Source of the DNA: Synergistales bacterium
GTDB lineage: Bacteria > Synergistota > Synergistia > Synergistales > Aminithiophilaceae
Length of the DNA: 64,000 bases
Assembly (NCBI GenBank): GCA_018433595.1
Contig: JAHDQY010000009.1
Span: 62,001-126,000 of the forward strand
Reading direction: 5' to 3'
This document shows, piece by piece, positions 11,804 through 42,169 of this stretch (position 1 is its first letter; each line of letters begins with the position of its first letter). The notes beneath the pieces were generated by a model, which saw only the letters and a list, made by a program, of their open reading frames with translations, was not told where the DNA came from and searched no databases. A program made the position numbers and the translations under genes.

Positions 11804-12208
11804 ATGTGGCGGGAGCTCGATCGCAGCGGTGACCTGGGGCTCCTCGTGGAGGCCCCCGACGGGGAATCCTTCTTCGAGGAGTGCCGCCGGGCTCTCTATT
11901 CCCTTCTTTTCGGTTCCGTTCCCCCCTGCGGGGAGGGGAGCCCCTTCTCTCTGACTCTTGATGGCATCGATAACAGTGATCTCGCCGTCTGCTGGTTCAA
12001 CGAGCTTCTCTATCTCCTTGAGACCGGCCGGGGATGTCTCGTCCCTAACCGCTATCGTCATGATGCCGGTCTCTTCCGCCTGGAGGCGGAGGGAACGCTC
12101 GTTTTTCCCCCTTCGATGCCGCGGTTGGCCGTTAAGGCCGCTACCTACGGAAGGCTACGCTTCGACGAGGGACCGCCCCTCCGCCTGGAAATTACCCTCG
12201 ATCTTTGA
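11804..12208 (+). CDS. Archease
   Basis: Archease (134 residues) is the protein cofactor that speeds guanylylation and turnover of the RNA ligase RtcB. The sequence shows the family's acidic N-terminal metal-binding strand (DRSGDLGL), the central WFNELLYLLETG helix and the C-terminal VKAATYGRLRF strand. The family position usually holding His in VKAATYH is Gly here. It lies one base after surE, with ATG 11804, and is directly upstream of rtcB, which supports the assignment. Confidence 0.88.
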   Translation: MWRELDRSGDLGLLVEAPDGESFFEECRRALYSLLFGSVPPCGEGSPFSLTLDGIDNSDLAVCWFNELLYLLETGRGCLVPNRYRHDAGLFRLEAEGTLVFPPSMPRLAVKAATYGRLRFDEGPPLRLEITLDL

Positions 12209-12252
12209 CCTCTTCTGCGGCGTTCCTTTCGTCACGGAAAGGAGGCATTCCC

Positions 12253-13683
12253 ATGGCAGTTCTGCTCGAGAGGATCGACGATGTCCGGTGGCTGCTTCCT
12301 CGCAGTTACAAGGCTTCGATGCGCGTCCCCGGACGGATTTACGGTGACGAGACGATTGTGGCGGCCCTCAGGGAAGACCTTTCCCTGGAGCAGGTGGCGA
12401 ACGTGGCCTCCTTGCCGGGCATCGTCGGCTACAGCCTGGCCATGCCCGACGTCCATCAGGGTTACGGTTTCCCCATAGGAGCCGTCGCTGCCTTCGACAC
12501 CGAAGAGGGTATCGTTTCCCCAGGAGGCGTCGGCTACGATATCTCCTGCGGCGTTCGCCTCATGGTCTCCACCCTCGAAGTCGACGACCTTAAGGGGAGA
12601 TGCGAGGATCTGGCCCGGGCCCTCTTTCGCGCCGTACCCTCAGGCGTCGGTTCCCGAAGCTCTCTTCGCCTTTCCGGAGAGGAGCTTTGCCGCGTCCTCG
12701 AAAAGGGGGCCCGATGGGCCGTCGACAGGGGGTTGGGCGAGGCCGCCGACCTCGCCCGGATCGAGGAGGGCGGCACCTTCGGCGGGGCCGACGGAGGGGC
12801 TCTCTCTCATCGGGCCCTCGAAAGGGGGCTGGATCAGCTCGGAACCCTCGGAAGCGGCAACCACTTCATCGAGGTCCAGGTCGTCGACGCCGTCTACGAC
12901 GTCGACCGAGCCGCGGCCTTCGGACTTTCTCCGGGGCGGGTTGCCGTCATGATCCACTGCGGCAGCCGGGGGCTGGGGCACCAGGTCTGCGACGACGGCA
13001 TCCGGCTCATGGCGCGCATGAAGGGAAGCCGGGCCGTAGCCGTCCCCGACAGGCAGCTCTGCTGCGCTCTCCTCGGTTCGGCCGAGGCCGAGGCCTATCT
13101 GGCGGCGATGCGGTCGGCCGCCAACTACGCCCTGGCCAATAGGGAAGTCATCGGCCATCAGGTCCGCAGCGTCTTCTGCGCCTTCGGTTCCCGGGGGCTG
13201 AACCTGCTCTACGACGTGAGTCACAACATCGCTCACGTCGAAAGACACCGCGTCGACGGCGTCCTGCGCCGCCTCTGCGTCCATCGCAAGGGAGCGACGA
13301 GGGCCCTGCCACCGGGTCACGGCTCCCTTTCGCCGGAGCTGCGCCCCCTGGGACAGCCGGTCCTCGTTCCGGGAAGCATGGGGACGGCCAGCTACGTTCT
13401 CGTGGGGACGGAAAGCGGAGCCGAGGAGGCCTTCGCCTCCACCTGCCACGGGGCGGGAAGGCAGCTGAGCCGTCAGGCGGCGAAAAAGGCGACGATTGGC
13501 CAGAATCTGACGCGGCGCCTTGCCGGCGAGGGGATTGTCGTCTGCGCCGAGAGAGAGGGAACGTTGAGAGAGGAGGCGCCCGAGGCCTACAAGGACATCG
13601 ACGCCGTCGTTGACGTCGTCGAGCGATCGGGAATCAGCGCCAAGGTCGCCCGCCTTCGCCCTCTCGCCGTCATCAAGGGTTGA
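12253..13683 (+). CDS. rtcB: RNA-splicing ligase RtcB
   Basis: RtcB joins RNA 2',3'-cyclic phosphate ends to 5'-OH ends with GTP and Mn2+. The 476-residue protein carries MPDVHQGYGFPIG, GGVGYDISCGVR, LGTLGSGNHFIEVQ, the HCGSRGLGHQ motif, VSHNIAH and the guanylylation-region CHGAGRQLSR near the C-terminus. ATG 12253 is preceded by AAAGGAGG; an in-frame TTG at 12205 lacks a site. Archease lies immediately upstream. The argG promoter overlaps its stop codon. Confidence 0.95.
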   Translation: MAVLLERIDDVRWLLPRSYKASMRVPGRIYGDETIVAALREDLSLEQVANVASLPGIVGYSLAMPDVHQGYGFPIGAVAAFDTEEGIVSPGGVGYDISCGVRLMVSTLEVDDLKGRCEDLARALFRAVPSGVGSRSSLRLSGEELCRVLEKGARWAVDRGLGEAADLARIEEGGTFGGADGGALSHRALERGLDQLGTLGSGNHFIEVQVVDAVYDVDRAAAFGLSPGRVAVMIHCGSRGLGHQVCDDGIRLMARMKGSRAVAVPDRQLCCALLGSAEAEAYLAAMRSAANYALANREVIGHQVRSVFCAFGSRGLNLLYDVSHNIAHVERHRVDGVLRRLCVHRKGATRALPPGHGSLSPELRPLGQPVLVPGSMGTASYVLVGTESGAEEAFASTCHGAGRQLSRQAAKKATIGQNLTRRLAGEGIVVCAEREGTLREEAPEAYKDIDAVVDVVERSGISAKVARLRPLAVIKG

Positions 13684-13708
13684 CAAGGTTTCTTCAGGCG
13701 GCTATACT
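13680..13708 (+). promoter_or_regulatory. Promoter of the argG T-box leader
   Basis: TTGACA (13680-13685), 17 bases, then TATACT (13703-13708), a near-consensus promoter overlapping the rtcB stop codon. Transcription would start near 13715 and give a ~390-base leader. Confidence 0.82.
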
Positions 13709-13751
13709 CTTCGCCAATGAATGGAAATCCTTTTAGGAGGACTGCTTTCCG

Positions 13752-13877
13752 ATGAAGGCCTTTGCCCGATTGAGACGAGTCCGATGCGAAAGACCTACCT
13801 CTGCGTTCACGCCCAATATGGGGGCGGAGACGGGGAAGAGTAGGCCTGTGGCTCGTCGACAGAGAGGGATTGCCTAG
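13752..13877 (+). CDS. Possible Arg-rich leader peptide overlapping the T-box
   Basis: A 41-codon frame starts at ATG 13752, 11 bases after AGGAGG (13736-13741), and stops at TAG 13875-13877. Nine of 41 residues are Arg (positions 6, 8, 9, 11, 14, 31, 35, 36, 38), and it lies in the leader of an arginine-synthesis gene. It runs into the 5' half of T-box stem I. It resembles no protein family. It could be a true attenuator peptide or a chance frame, and the long spacing to the binding site weakens it. Confidence 0.35.
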   Translation: MKAFARLRRVRCERPTSAFTPNMGAETGKSRPVARRQRGIA

Positions 13878-14068
13878 GCTGAAAGCGATCCTCGACGGCA
13901 AGGCCGAATAGAGCCCCCGAGCCTCTTTCCGAAGAAAGGCCTTGCCAAGTAGGAAAACGCCTGGTTCCCGTTAAAGAACCGTAAGAGGCCGCAGAGATGT
14001 CTGCGGCAATCAGGGTGGTACCGCGGGCTAAAAGCTCGTCCCTTTCCGGGACGGGCTTTTTTTGTTTG
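13832..14068 (+). promoter_or_regulatory. T-box riboswitch upstream of argG, specifier AGA (Arg)
   Basis: A tRNA-sensing leader. Stem I is closed by 13833-13840 pairing with 13923-13930 and carries the AGTA box at 13839-13842 and an AGAGAG distal element at 13861. The specifier position in GAA-T-AGA-G reads AGA (13910-13912), an Arg codon. Two short hairpins follow, then the invariant antiterminator box AGGGTGGTACCGCG (14012-14025) and a terminator (AGCTCGTCCC / GGGACGGGCT plus seven T). Uncharged tRNA-Arg would stabilise the antiterminator and turn argG on. The T-box call is firm; the specifier is read by pattern. Confidence 0.92.
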
Positions 14069-14109: not shown

Positions 14110-15345
14110 ATGACTTACAAAGGCAAAGTGGTTCTGGCTTACAGTGGTGGACTCGACACCTGCGTCGCCGTCAAATGGCTCGCCGATCAGGGCTACGACG
14201 TGGTGACCTTCACGGCCGACGTCGGCCAGGTCGTCGATCTGGAGGCCGTCAAGGACAAGGCCCTCAAGACGGGAGCCGTCAACGCCTACGTGATGGACCT
14301 CCGGGAAGAGTTCGTCCGGGACTTCGTCTGGCCGGCCCTCAAGGCCAACGCCCTCTATCAGGGGACCTATCCCCTCAACTCGGCCCTCTCGCGTCCCCTT
14401 ATCGCCAAGTACCTCGTCTGGGTCGCCCAGATCGAGGGAGCCGTCGCCGTCGCCCACGGCTGCACCGGCAAGGGGCAGGATCAGGTCCGTTTCGAGGTCT
14501 GTGTCGGCGCCATCGATCCCAAGCTCCAGGTTCTGGCTCCCGTGCGGGACTGGCACTTCAGCCGCGAGACGGAGATCGAGTATGCCAAGGAGCACGGCAT
14601 TCCCGTGCCGACGACGATCAAGTCACCCTACAGCATCGACGAGAACATGTGGGGGCGGGCCATCGAGTGCGGAATCCTCGAGGATCCCTGGAACGAGCCT
14701 CCCGCCGACTGCTTCGCTCTGACGGCCGATCCCTGGAACACGCCCGACGAACCGCTCTCCATGGAGATCGGCTTCGAAAAGGGTCTCCCCGTCTCCCTTG
14801 ACGGAGTCTCCATGAGCGGGACGGCCCTCATCGCCAAGTTGAACGAGGTCGCCGGATCCTACGGCGTCGGCCGCATCGACATGATCGAGGACCGCCTCGT
14901 GGGCTTCAAGAGCCGCGAGGTCTACGAATGCCCCGCCGCCGTCGTGCTCATGCAGGCCCACAAGGCCCTGGAGAAGCTGACCCTGGCCAAGGAGGTCCAC
15001 GCCGCCAAGGCCGAGATGGAAAACAAGTACGGCGAGCTGGCCTACGTTGGCTACTGGTTCTCCCCCCTCAAGGAGGCCTATGACGCCTTCTTCGAAAAGG
15101 CCCAGGAGGTTGTTTCCGGCGTCGCCAGGGTGCGCCTCTACAAGGGACAGGCCGTTGTCGTCGGGCTCAAGTCCGATCAGTCCCTCTATCAGGAGAACCT
15201 GGCCACCTATACCGATTCCGACACTTTCGACCACGCCTCAGCCAAGGGCTTCATCAACGTCTGGGGTCTGGCTGTCAAAACCTGGCGCCAGGTTCATCCC
15301 GCCGAACCGATGAAGGTCCCCAGTCTCAAGGTCGTCGGTCAGTAG
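14110..15345 (+). CDS. argG: Argininosuccinate synthase
   Basis: ArgG condenses citrulline and aspartate with ATP to argininosuccinate in arginine synthesis. The 411-residue protein has the ATP pyrophosphatase P-loop AYSGGLDTCVAV near residue 11-22, and family signatures in HGCTGKGQDQVRFE and SPYSIDENMWGRA. ATG 14110 follows GGGAGG; in-frame upstream codons lie within the T-box terminator region and are not used. It is a single gene between its T-box leader and a terminator. argH is not adjacent, which is unusual. Confidence 0.96.
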   Translation: MTYKGKVVLAYSGGLDTCVAVKWLADQGYDVVTFTADVGQVVDLEAVKDKALKTGAVNAYVMDLREEFVRDFVWPALKANALYQGTYPLNSALSRPLIAKYLVWVAQIEGAVAVAHGCTGKGQDQVRFEVCVGAIDPKLQVLAPVRDWHFSRETEIEYAKEHGIPVPTTIKSPYSIDENMWGRAIECGILEDPWNEPPADCFALTADPWNTPDEPLSMEIGFEKGLPVSLDGVSMSGTALIAKLNEVAGSYGVGRIDMIEDRLVGFKSREVYECPAAVVLMQAHKALEKLTLAKEVHAAKAEMENKYGELAYVGYWFSPLKEAYDAFFEKAQEVVSGVARVRLYKGQAVVVGLKSDQSLYQENLATYTDSDTFDHASAKGFINVWGLAVKTWRQVHPAEPMKVPSLKVVGQ

Positions 15346-39069: not shown

Positions 39070-39818
39070 AGAGTTTTCCCTCCTTCCGAGCGGTAGGCCT
39101 CGAAGGGGGTATCGTAAACCTCTTCGAGGATTGAGCCGTCCAGATCGGACGGCGTTCCGTGAAAAAGAAGTCTTCCGTCTTTGAGGGCGGCGATGGAGTC
39201 GGCCCAGCCCAGGGCGCTGTTGACGTCGTGGACGGTGATGGCGACGGCTTTCCCCTCCCGGGCGAGGTGGCGGAGGAGGCCCAGGACCCGAACGGCCTGA
39301 CAGGGGTCGAGGGCCGAGGTCGGCTCATCGAGAAGGAAGACGGCGGGGTCCTGGACGAGGAGCATGGCGATCATGACCCTCTGACTTTCGCCACCGGAAA
39401 GTTCCGTGACGGGGCGGAAAAGCAGTGCTTCGACTCCGACGGCACGAGCCGCCTCGACGATGCGGTCATCGTCTCGGCGGCGTCTCCTTTCGAAGCTTTG
39501 GCGGTGAGGAAGACGGCCCAGGTCGATGAGATCGCAGACGGCGAAGGGAAAGGAGACGATCGTTCTCTGCGGAAGGAGCCCCACCTTGAGTCCGAGGTCC
39601 CGCCGTTTCCAGCGTCGGAGTTCTCTGCCTTCCAAGGTCAGGCTTCCTTCGTAAGGGAGAAGCCCCGCCATGGTTCGTAGAAGAGTGCTCTTGCCGCTGC
39701 CGTTGGGGCCGATGACGGCTGTCAGATGTCCCTCGGGCAGGGAGGTTGAGATCTCTTGCAGCACCGTCGCCTCTTTGTAGGCGACGGTAAGCGCTTGGAG
39801 GCTCACGGCGGCTGTCAC
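39042..39818 (-). CDS. ABC transporter ATP-binding protein, BtuD/FecE type
   Basis: The 258-residue ATPase powers the importer with the adjacent permease. It has Walker A GPNGSGKST (about 38-46), Q-loop LLPQRT, the signature LSGGESQR, Walker B FLLDEPTSALD and the switch His in TVHDVNSAL. GTG 39818 overlaps the permease stop (GTGA). Longer readings upstream lie inside the permease gene. Confidence 0.9.
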   Translation of the reverse strand: MTAAVSLQALTVAYKEATVLQEISTSLPEGHLTAVIGPNGSGKSTLLRTMAGLLPYEGSLTLEGRELRRWKRRDLGLKVGLLPQRTIVSFPFAVCDLIDLGRLPHRQSFERRRRRDDDRIVEAARAVGVEALLFRPVTELSGGESQRVMIAMLLVQDPAVFLLDEPTSALDPCQAVRVLGLLRHLAREGKAVAITVHDVNSALGWADSIAALKDGRLLFHGTPSDLDGSILEEVYDTPFEAYRSEGGKTLWRALSLPS

Positions 39819-40816
39819 CGCCTGGTCCCCCGGAGCAGGATCCAGCAGAAGACGGGGCCGCCCAATAACGCCGTGACGACGCCTACGGGAAGCTCCCCCA
39901 GCCTCTGAGCCACACCGTCGGCGGCCGCCAGCAACGATCCTCCGCCGATGAAAGAGGCCAGCAGAAGAGGACGATGGCGGGGGCCGAGAAGGAGCCGCAA
40001 CAGGTGAGGGGCCACGAGACCGACAAAGCCGATGATGCCGAAGCGGGAGACGGTCAGAGATGTGGCGAAGGCTGCCGATGCGAGGAGAGACAGGCGGAGT
40101 CGTCGCTCCTCGATCCCCAGAAGAGTCCCTCGCTCCTCGCCGAGAGAGAGGGCGTCCAGTTCCTGCGCCAGGATGAGAGCCGGAACGAGAACGACCGCTC
40201 CGCCGATCCAGACGGCGACGGCGCCGGTCTTCGTCGCTCCGGCGAAGCCGCCCATGAGCCAAAGGACGATGGCTCCCAGACGGTCATCGGCCAGGGCTTT
40301 CAGAAGGGTGACCCCCGCCGAGAGGAAGGCGTTGACGATGATGCCCGCCAGAACCAGATAGGCCGTCGCGCCGCCTCCGGCTCGGGAGGCCAAAAACCAG
40401 GAGAGGCAGAGGGCGCCGAAGGCCCCGATGAAGGAGGCGGGAGTGACCCAGGCACCGCCCAAGAAGAAGCCGATGGCGGCACCGAAAGCTGCTCCTGAGG
40501 CGATTCCCAGGGTGTAGGGTTCGGCCAGGGGATTGGAGAGAAGCCCCTGAAGGACGACTCCCGAGACGCTCAGCGCTCCTCCGGCCCCGACGGCAGAAAG
40601 AAGGCGGGGCAGCCGGAGAGACCTCACGACAAGGAGTTCCGGGGAGCCGCCCTCGTCGGCGAGACCGAAAAGGAGCGCCAGAGCTCGGAGGGGGGCGATA
40701 TTCCAGTCGCCGCAGGTGATGCGGAAGAAAGAGACGAGAAGGAGAAGAGCCGTCAGGGCCGATAGCAGAAAGATGAGCCGCCGTGTCCTGCTGCGGCGAT
40801 GGTTCGTCAGTTCCAT
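39815..40816 (-). CDS. ABC transporter permease, BtuC/FecCD type
   Basis: The 333-residue protein has about nine to ten membrane segments. RLPRLLSAVGAGGALSVSGVVLQGLLSNPLAEPYTLGIASGA is the FecCD/BtuC signature region in parts, and FIGFVGLVAPHLLRLLLG is the family's C-terminal ATPase-contact motif. It is the second gene of the riboswitch-led operon and overlaps the ATPase gene. Cobalamin, cobinamide or another chelate could be the cargo. Confidence 0.9.
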   Translation of the reverse strand: MELTNHRRSRTRRLIFLLSALTALLLLVSFFRITCGDWNIAPLRALALLFGLADEGGSPELLVVRSLRLPRLLSAVGAGGALSVSGVVLQGLLSNPLAEPYTLGIASGAAFGAAIGFFLGGAWVTPASFIGAFGALCLSWFLASRAGGGATAYLVLAGIIVNAFLSAGVTLLKALADDRLGAIVLWLMGGFAGATKTGAVAVWIGGAVVLVPALILAQELDALSLGEERGTLLGIEERRLRLSLLASAAFATSLTVSRFGIIGFVGLVAPHLLRLLLGPRHRPLLLASFIGGGSLLAAADGVAQRLGELPVGVVTALLGGPVFCWILLRGTRR

Positions 40817-40855: not shown

Positions 40856-41737
40856 CTAGTCGAAAAGGGCCTTCAGGTGCTGCAGGAAAAGAGCGCGCAC
40901 TTCGCCGTTCTCCCCAAGGCCAGTGATGTCGGCGTCGACGCGGTAGCCGTGCTCTTTCAGCATGGAAAGCCACGACTGGGGGTCTTCCGCGTCGGCCATG
41001 TCGTTGCGGGCGTGGTCGCCGGCGACGATCATGAGGGGAACGAGGGTGACGCGGCGGGCGCCGCTTTTCTCAAGGCGGCGGGCCATGTCGTCGAAGGAGG
41101 GGAAACCTTCGACGGTCCCCACGAAGAAGCGGTCCGATACCTTTTCAAGGGCGAGCTGCATCTGACTGTAGAAGGCGTTGGCGCTGTGAGGCGAGCCGTG
41201 TCCCATGAAGACGACGGCCTGGTCGCCGCCGAGTTTGTCCTGATAGGTCCGATAAAGGATTGCGGCGAGATCGGCGCAGTCGTCGGAATCGGTCAGAAGG
41301 GGATTGCCGAGAGCGATTCTTTCGAAACCGTACTTACCGTCGATCGAGGCCAGGGCGGTGACGACGCGGGCGATATCGTCGAACTCCTCGCCGGGAATGA
41401 TATGGGTCGGCTGGACGTAGACATGGGTGAATCCGTCATCCTGCAGTTTCGCCAGCGCTTCCATGGGAGTGGGGATGTACAGGCCTTCCTCTTTCACGAT
41501 TTTGTGCCTGATGATATTGGAGGTGTAGGCCAGCCGCACCTCCGTATCGGGAAAGGCTTTGCGGGCTTCATCGACGAGGGCGTCGATGGCATGGCGGGCT
41601 TCCGGCATGGATGTGCCGAAGGAAACGACGAGAATCGCCTTTCGGGGCTCTTGTTCCGCGCCGTGGCCATGGGCGAAGGCGATGCCGCTGAAGGCGAAGA
41701 GGGCGGCCAGGGGGAGCAGGATCAGCAATTTTTTCAC
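40856..41737 (-). CDS. cbiK: Sirohydrochlorin cobaltochelatase, predicted exported
   Basis: CbiK inserts Co2+ into sirohydrochlorin. The 293-residue protein begins with a clear Sec signal (MKKLL, hydrophobic core, likely cut after SGIAFA at residue 22) followed by HGHG. The chelatase domain has VVSFGTSMPEAR, the metal-site motif PTHIIPGEE with H112, and MGHGSPHSANAFY with H180 and H184. Periplasmic CbiK is known from Desulfovibrio vulgaris. GTG 41737 follows AAGGAGG. It is the first gene after the cobalamin riboswitch and the only chelatase gene in the window. Confidence 0.92.
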   Translation of the reverse strand: MKKLLILLPLAALFAFSGIAFAHGHGAEQEPRKAILVVSFGTSMPEARHAIDALVDEARKAFPDTEVRLAYTSNIIRHKIVKEEGLYIPTPMEALAKLQDDGFTHVYVQPTHIIPGEEFDDIARVVTALASIDGKYGFERIALGNPLLTDSDDCADLAAILYRTYQDKLGGDQAVVFMGHGSPHSANAFYSQMQLALEKVSDRFFVGTVEGFPSFDDMARRLEKSGARRVTLVPLMIVAGDHARNDMADAEDPQSWLSMLKEHGYRVDADITGLGENGEVRALFLQHLKALFD

Positions 41738-41835: not shown

Positions 41836-41885
41836 AAGAAGGCAACTTGTGGCGTCCGCCCACGCAGACATCACCTCCGATCACC

Positions 41886-42028
41886 TCCACGGCCGGTCTC
41901 CTGGCTTCCGGTCTTCCTCTTCCGCACCTTCCCGAAGGAGCTTGCCCTTCAGTGGCTTTTTGCGGATTCGTCGCGGTTACAGTGGCGGGGCCACACGGGT
42001 CTTTCACCCGTTTCCCGTCGCCGTGGCG
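41886..42028 (-). promoter_or_regulatory. Cobalamin (B12) riboswitch
   Basis: On the minus strand the element starts with the closing strand CCACGGC (near 42026), then GACGGGAA and GGTG, the core GCCCCGCCACTGTAA, GCCACTGAAGGG-like text, and the B12 box AAGCCAGGAGACC (near 41904-41892). It ends with GGCCGTGG, which pairs with the start. Adenosylcobalamin binding would shut off the downstream hem/cob operon through the terminator at 41802-41835. This is the only cobalamin riboswitch seen. Confidence 0.93.
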
Positions 42029-42169
42029 GTCTCTTTATAGGGTGTTTACGGCGCCTCGCAGGGCGTCATCGCTTATTGTGTCACAGGAAGGCTCCCGGGT
42101 CCATAGCGGGGGACCTGAAAAATTAAATCAATTTCCTCAAGAGAGCCTTTTGTACATGGCCGGGTCCTT

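Follow-up and report, generated by a model that had tools for sequence, protein, structure and literature searches.

The closest known system to the one reported here is the leader of rtpA (anti-TRAP) in Bacillus subtilis. Chen and Yanofsky are said to have described in it, in 2003 and 2004, a T-box together with a Trp leader peptide. In that leader the peptide is encoded downstream of the T-box terminator and controls rtpA translation. An excerpt of one account has this leader reading tRNA-Trp twice, through the T-box and through the leader peptide (PMC11255114). For arginine (Arg), an excerpt of a second account describes consecutive rare Arg codons in a short upstream open reading frame (uORF), orf34 of the Salmonella speF leader, that sense arginine through ribosome pausing (PMC6386406). 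Here we analyze the leader of argG in a window of 64,000 nucleotides (nt) from a Synergistales bacterium (assembly GCA_018433595.1, contig JAHDQY010000009.1, positions 62,001 to 126,000 of the forward strand; window coordinates are used throughout). In this leader a short, Arg-rich uORF precedes and overlaps stem I of an Arg T-box (Table 1). We consider it likely that the leader carries two sensors, a translated Arg leader peptide gating the Arg T-box, both of which would sense arginyl-tRNA; pairing of the uORF RNA probably locks the tRNA-sensing switch shut.

Like other Arg T-boxes of RF00230, the element has a stem I with an AGA specifier, an antiterminator bulge and a terminator, and it stands before an amino-acid biosynthesis gene. 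It differs in that the uORF runs across the 5' strand of stem I, which also has a second, upstream pairing partner. With rtpA it would share a double readout of how far the tRNA of a single amino acid is charged, one through a T-box and one through cognate codons in a leader peptide, whereas here the peptide comes before the T-box, overlaps its stem I and would decide whether the T-box can fold. The window does not show the rtpA order: its uORF is over by 13877, and the T-box terminator follows at 14030-14060. The trp, his and leu attenuators also use a short frame led by a Shine-Dalgarno (SD) sequence, with a cluster of rare cognate codons as arm 1 of a 1:2 / 2:3 choice and a stop near the second arm, but in the present case stalling would free a tRNA-binding T-box stem and not the antiterminator hairpin itself. 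Salmonella orf34 likewise uses pausing at Arg codons of a short uORF as an arginine sensor; unlike the present leader it acts without a T-box and controls Rho termination, RNase G decay and decarboxylase translation. A preliminary description of this locus, made from the sequence alone, had called the combination of T-box and peptide attenuation unusual, which is fair, with the qualification that a T-box and a leader peptide in tandem were already known from rtpA in the other order. This order, with the leader peptide ahead of the T-box, looks new: searches of the open-access literature found no paper that describes a leader peptide in front of a T-box stem I or overlapping it, subscription papers lying mostly outside these searches.

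The uORF translates as MKAFARLRRVRCERPTSAFTPNMGAETGKSRPVARRQRGIA, 41 amino acids including nine Arg. Of the nine Arg codons, five precede stem I and four are within its 5' strand, and the stop codon falls in the apical part of stem I. This confirms the 41-codon frame of the preliminary description, with its nine Arg codons and AGGAGG, set between the argG promoter and the T-box and running through the 5' strand of stem I. The interval given there, 13715-13877, takes in sequence from about the transcript start onwards; the frame itself begins at 13752. An alternative ATG frame (13721-13843) was dropped, since by eye two of the genus's three other genomes lack its ATG. The T-box itself scores above the gathering threshold and has a cognate Arg specifier and a terminator/antiterminator pair; the specifier loop reads GAA-U-AGA-G-CCCC in a register assigned by eye. 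When stem I was retained and positions 13715-13819 were shuffled with dinucleotides preserved, an SD match of at least 6 with a frame reaching stem I appeared in 81 of 20,000 trials, and an SD and frame with at least 5 Arg within the first 14 codons in none. The SD-led Arg-rich frame is not a product of chance.

ArgG was present in 164 of 185 Synergistota genomes, and the leaders of 107 were inspected, a sample consisting mostly of best ArgG matches plus families f8 and f9, with many f5 genomes absent. An argG T-box was found in 85 leaders: 60 with a uORF, 22 without (assigned by eye) and 3 cut by a contig end (G131, G152, G153). The Arg-cluster uORF is at the same place in all 60, which represent 26 genera and 7 families, so that a conserved short frame behind an SD, with its cognate codons in a cluster as in a peptide-coding attenuator, is present throughout this set. 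An SD match of at least 5 nt was found in 52 of the 60, and a promoter match of at least 9/12 upstream in 55; the start codon is ATG in 32, GTG in 21 and TTG in 7. Measured from the CAGAGA motif, the stop codons of 58 uORFs lie at +6 to +52, within the stem I apex or a little beyond it; those of the remaining two, both from f9, lie at -33, at the stem I base. The uORF frame, which was itself chosen partly by Arg number, has a genus mean of 5.23 Arg per first 16 codons compared to 0.38 and 1.23 in the other two frames, and stops interrupt it in 0 of 26 genera compared to 21 and 14. Within the window's genus the uORF is intact in 4 of 4 genomes, with AGGAGG, start and stop kept and with synonymous changes at codons neighbouring the Arg codons; one genome shows a Cys to Arg change. 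Alignment of argG leaders from relatives, which the preliminary description had proposed as a check, therefore came out in its favour, the frame being open in all four genomes with third-base changes and recurring across the 26 genera.

The choice of Arg codons is biased. AGA and CGA account for 251 of the 322 cluster Arg codons upstream of stem I in the 60 leaders, yet in 35 long ORFs of the window, which were picked mechanically, no Arg codon is used less often than these two (7.5% and 10.5%, together 18% of Arg codons). The tRNA-Arg anticodons of the window's genome are UCU, CCU, CCG and ACG (43 of 46 tRNA matches typed), and with this set the AGA codons and the AGA specifier would both use tRNA-Arg(UCU). 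Read by eye, the specifier is AGA in f1, f2, f3, f9, f10 and two f4 genera and CGC or CGU in f8 and one f4 genus; in one leader (G139) it is ambiguous. The share of AGA and AGG among the Arg codons upstream of stem I is 0.38-0.60 where the specifier is AGA (11 genera) and 0-0.33 where it is CGC or CGU (15 genera), a complete separation by genus. On the ArgG tree, at a cut of 0.36 that was chosen after the values were known, the association amounts to two independent contrasts, both concordant (sign test p = 0.5), and with two contrasts only it cannot reach significance.

One feature is absent from the preliminary description: the uORF RNA and the 5' strand of stem I are complementary to each other. 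GACGAGUC at 13774-13781 of the window is predicted to pair with GGCUCGUC at 13850-13857 and the pairing to extend to 13814/13822, joining region 1 (13765-13814) to region 2 (13822-13868). Interaction energies had z < -1.64 in 20 of 26 genera when the uORF part was shuffled with dinucleotides preserved (mean -2.91) and in 19 of 26 when its codon order was shuffled (mean -2.72). In an alignment of 27 AGA-specifier leaders, 16 consensus region 1:2 pairs hold in 89.3% of cells compared to 31.8-47.5% when slid.

Single-sequence folding of the free leaders put an average of 27.6 pairs between regions 1 and 2 and 2.6 into stem I; stem I rose to 19.2 pairs with region 1 removed and to 13.1 with region 1 shuffled. 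A ribosome masking an Arg codon gave 6.7 stem I pairs on average and 11.8 at the best codon, while a ribosome placed at the uORF stop gave 0.8. In the window the free leader had 0.0 stem I pairs; stalling raised this from 4.8 at the first to 15.1 at the last upstream Arg codon (AGA codon 14), and 16.5 were formed without region 1. The modelled stall freed 18.4-19.3 of 19.5-22.3 stem I pairs in the five f10 genera, and release was also good in f1, f2 and a few others. The earlier proposal that stalling at Arg codons alters the folding of stem I is thus supported by folding only, and the expected effect now has a sign: a stall should release stem I, since the uORF RNA is itself the competitor for the 5' strand.

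The sequence and its comparison among relatives establish a promoter, an SD, a frame, an Arg cluster, a T-box, a terminator and a predicted region 1:2 complementarity. From these we infer translation, stalling, an order of folding and an effect on argG. Region 2, the 5' strand of stem I, would be contested by region 1, which holds the Arg codons, and by region 3, the 3' strand of the same stem. When arginine is plentiful, ribosomes would clear the Arg cluster and reach the stop inside stem I, which would leave stem I blocked; with no ribosome present, region 1 would pair with region 2, and stem I would likewise be blocked. A blocked stem I would leave the tRNA unread, and the terminator would form before argG. 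When charged tRNA-Arg is short, a ribosome would stall at the AGA/CGA cluster upstream of stem I and mask region 1, so that region 2 would pair with region 3 and stem I would fold. The T-box could then bind uncharged tRNA-Arg, at its AGA specifier and at the antiterminator bulge, and transcription would continue into argG. The overall design would be that of a trp-kind attenuator in front of a T-box. The preliminary interpretation is partly supported by this analysis, and extended. A stricter form of the proposal, which we find evenly balanced between right and wrong, is a two-key switch: the T-box would fold only during a stall on the upstream Arg codons, two sensors of the same pool would have to agree, and the leader Arg codons would follow the specifier (AGA to CGN) upon a change of isoacceptor.

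Several results weigh against these proposals. Six genera (g6, g40, g41, g42, g44 and g51) failed the complementarity test. Both-side changes were present in 1 of the 16 region 1:2 pairs, as by shuffling (422 of 500 as high), compared to 10 of 28 pairs in stem I itself; judged from the alignments, the complementarity is kept and compensatory evolution is weak. Weak compensation would be expected if one strand had to serve two partners as well as the frame, or if the pairing were unselected. In arm swaps the own arm beat all foreign arms in 9 of 26 genera, and the own strand was best in 10 of 26. RNAalifold gave no good consensus 1:2 helix for leaders with CGY specifiers (alignment A2; -8.92 compared to -26.42 for A1), so the complementarity of these leaders rests on single-sequence folds. 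Release of stem I was poor in most f8 genera and in g6, with best values of 3.3 of 20.6 pairs in g50, 6.1 of 24.9 in g35 and 2.9 of 18.4 in g6, and in 15 of 26 genera only was stem I trapped more than in 57 of 60 shuffles. T-box leaders without a uORF averaged 14.4 stem I pairs, with 5 of 19 at 4.2 or fewer; since some of these control leaders fold stem I poorly, single-sequence folding is a rough tool here, and it leaves out the tRNA, tertiary contacts and helicase action. For mutually exclusive pairings with the control codons in arm 1, then, complementarity exceeding shuffles in 20 of 26 genera stands beside 1 of 16 pairs doubly changed and a weak stall model in most f8 genera. Lastly, purifying selection on the peptide outside the Arg codons was not detected by synonymous-fraction permutations in ten groups (p 0.105-0.898). 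With this codon-substitution test not significant, the claim of a uORF rests on the SD, the open frame, the Arg codons and their position, and the conserved features, as far as the alignments indicate, are the open frame, the Arg cluster and its location rather than the whole peptide.

The last point bears on a different mechanism, in which the translated uORF would act through its nascent chain, an Arg-rich arrest peptide whose ligand in the tunnel is arginine, ornithine or a similar molecule, so that arrest and not a lack of charged tRNA sets the fold. AGA-specifier leaders keep a motif, RRARRIRP, that goes beyond Arg, with Pro at the tenth position in 21 of 28 and CCT/CCG changes in its codon, and in the excerpt on Salmonella orf34 before speF arginine is sensed by two consecutive Arg codons (PMC6386406). 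We nevertheless regard this mechanism as unlikely: the residues between the Arg codons drift across families and purifying selection was not found, and the favouring of AGA and CGA over common Arg codons would be needless if the peptide sequence were what mattered.

Alternatively, the anti-stem-I RNA hairpin might tune the T-box without translation, the Arg codons being a by-product of complementarity to CUCGUC in stem I. The region 1:2 complementarity of 20 of 26 genera would suit such a hairpin, as would the pairing of GACGAGC with GCUCGUC in AGA-specifier leaders. The SD of at least 5 nt in 52 of 60 leaders and a frame that stays open while stops fall in the other two speak against it; moreover, g40, g41, g42, g44 and g51 keep their Arg clusters despite non-significant complementarity, and AGA gives way to CGA in step with the specifier. 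We judge a purely RNA-based device quite unlikely. It is very unlikely that the uORF is translated merely to load ribosomes that unwind or shield the leader, as a translation-rate or Rho sensor with Arg specificity in the T-box alone. The stop lies inside stem I in 58 of 60 leaders and at its base in 2, so each passing ribosome would open region 2 as this explanation supposes, but about five Arg per 16 codons, mostly rare AGA and CGA, in 26 genera argue otherwise. A chance frame in a GC-rich leader, with the T-box acting alone, is hardly credible, for although GC-rich sequence yields many spurious Arg-rich frames, 0 of 20,000 shuffles matched and the frame is at a single place in 60 leaders of 26 genera.

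Table 1. Features of the argG leader and argG in the window.
Feature	Position	Strand	Remarks
Sigma-70-type promoter, TTGACA-17-TATACT	13680..13708	+	11/12 consensus matches
Predicted transcript start	~13715	+	
uORF Shine-Dalgarno, AGGAGG	13735..13740	+	11 nt 5' of ATG
Putative Arg leader peptide uORF	13752..13877	+	41 codons, ATG 13752, TAG 13875-13877
Arg control codons CGA 6, AGA 8, CGA 9, CGA 11, AGA 14	13767..13793	+	
Region 1, 5' arm of predicted anti-stem-I hairpin, overlapping Arg codons	13765..13814	+	
Region 2, T-box stem I 5' strand, common to stem I and anti-stem-I hairpin	13822..13868	+	
Region 3, stem I 3' strand, containing Arg specifier AGA (13910-13912)	13880..13922	+	
T-box leader, RF00230	13818..14046	+	covariance model, 106 bits, gathering score 93
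T-box antiterminator bulge motif, GGTGGTACCGCG	14014-14025	+	contains the UGGN bulge
Intrinsic terminator of T-box	14030..14060	+	
argG, argininosuccinate synthase	14110..15345	+	equivalog NF001770, 577.7 bits, cut-off 334

Immediately 5' of the argG promoter is an RtcB-family gene (12205-13683, + strand). Its top NCBIfam match is to the intein-containing RtcB model, below the cut-off and with the best stretch at positions 579-961 of 961, and the gene appears intein-free. Elsewhere in the window a cobalamin riboswitch (41874-42040, - strand, 94.7 bits) lies upstream of ORFs that by eye are CbiK-like (40856-41737, - strand) and permease-like (39815-40816, - strand).

The proposed gating of a T-box by a leader peptide would apply to part of the phylum, and argG T-boxes also exist without the uORF. 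The distance from the -10 box to stem I has a median of 110 nt in the 55 uORF leaders with a clear promoter (one value of 0 reflects a mis-called promoter). Among the 22 uncut leaders that lack a uORF, 19 have 19-33 nt; G119, G139 and G164 have 82-95 nt before stem I, yet no clear uORF. It follows from this difference in spacing that the uORF is an inserted or lost block, and its presence changed at least 6 times on the ArgG tree. A search of GTDB genomes for the AGA-type cluster pattern gave 29 stretches, of which 13 were from Synergistota, 13 of 13 before a T-box; the other 16 had no T-box core within 500 nt, CGN-type clusters not being sought there. By eye, and with no formal test, no SD-led uORF with cognate codons was seen at 21 non-argG T-box loci (thrC, AMP-ligase-like, carA, LysX-like and others).

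Other variants were observed among these T-boxes. Seven loci were rescanned with RF00230, giving four T-boxes above the cut-off, with L003, L104 and L055 below. L003 (1501-1731), from the window's genome, is a T-box of 53.6 bits with a Lys-like AAG specifier (by eye) before a LysX-like ORF. L104, L055 and other f8 leaders have T-boxes with CGC/CGU specifiers that are without the usual AGUA/GAA letters of the specifier loop. Stem I of L159 and L160 (G152, G153) is lengthened by an insert of about 100 nt, which separates its apical part from the specifier. The argG T-boxes L068, L070 and L075 (G024, G028, G025) have an AGG-like specifier without the standard core motif and are perhaps decaying. 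In family f11 (L022, L026, L112-L114) a carA-like gene and argG both have Arg T-boxes with a CGG specifier (by eye) and without a uORF.

Peptide attenuators and T-boxes are usually viewed as alternative sensors of amino-acid starvation. If our proposal is right, the argG leaders of these Synergistota would have both sensors acting one after the other in a single RNA, and the ribosome would determine whether that RNA gets to read the tRNA. It would then be possible to test why one tRNA should be sensed twice, how leader translation and T-box folding compete and whether leader codons and specifier change isoacceptor jointly; the argG T-boxes of the same phylum that are without a uORF would serve as natural controls.
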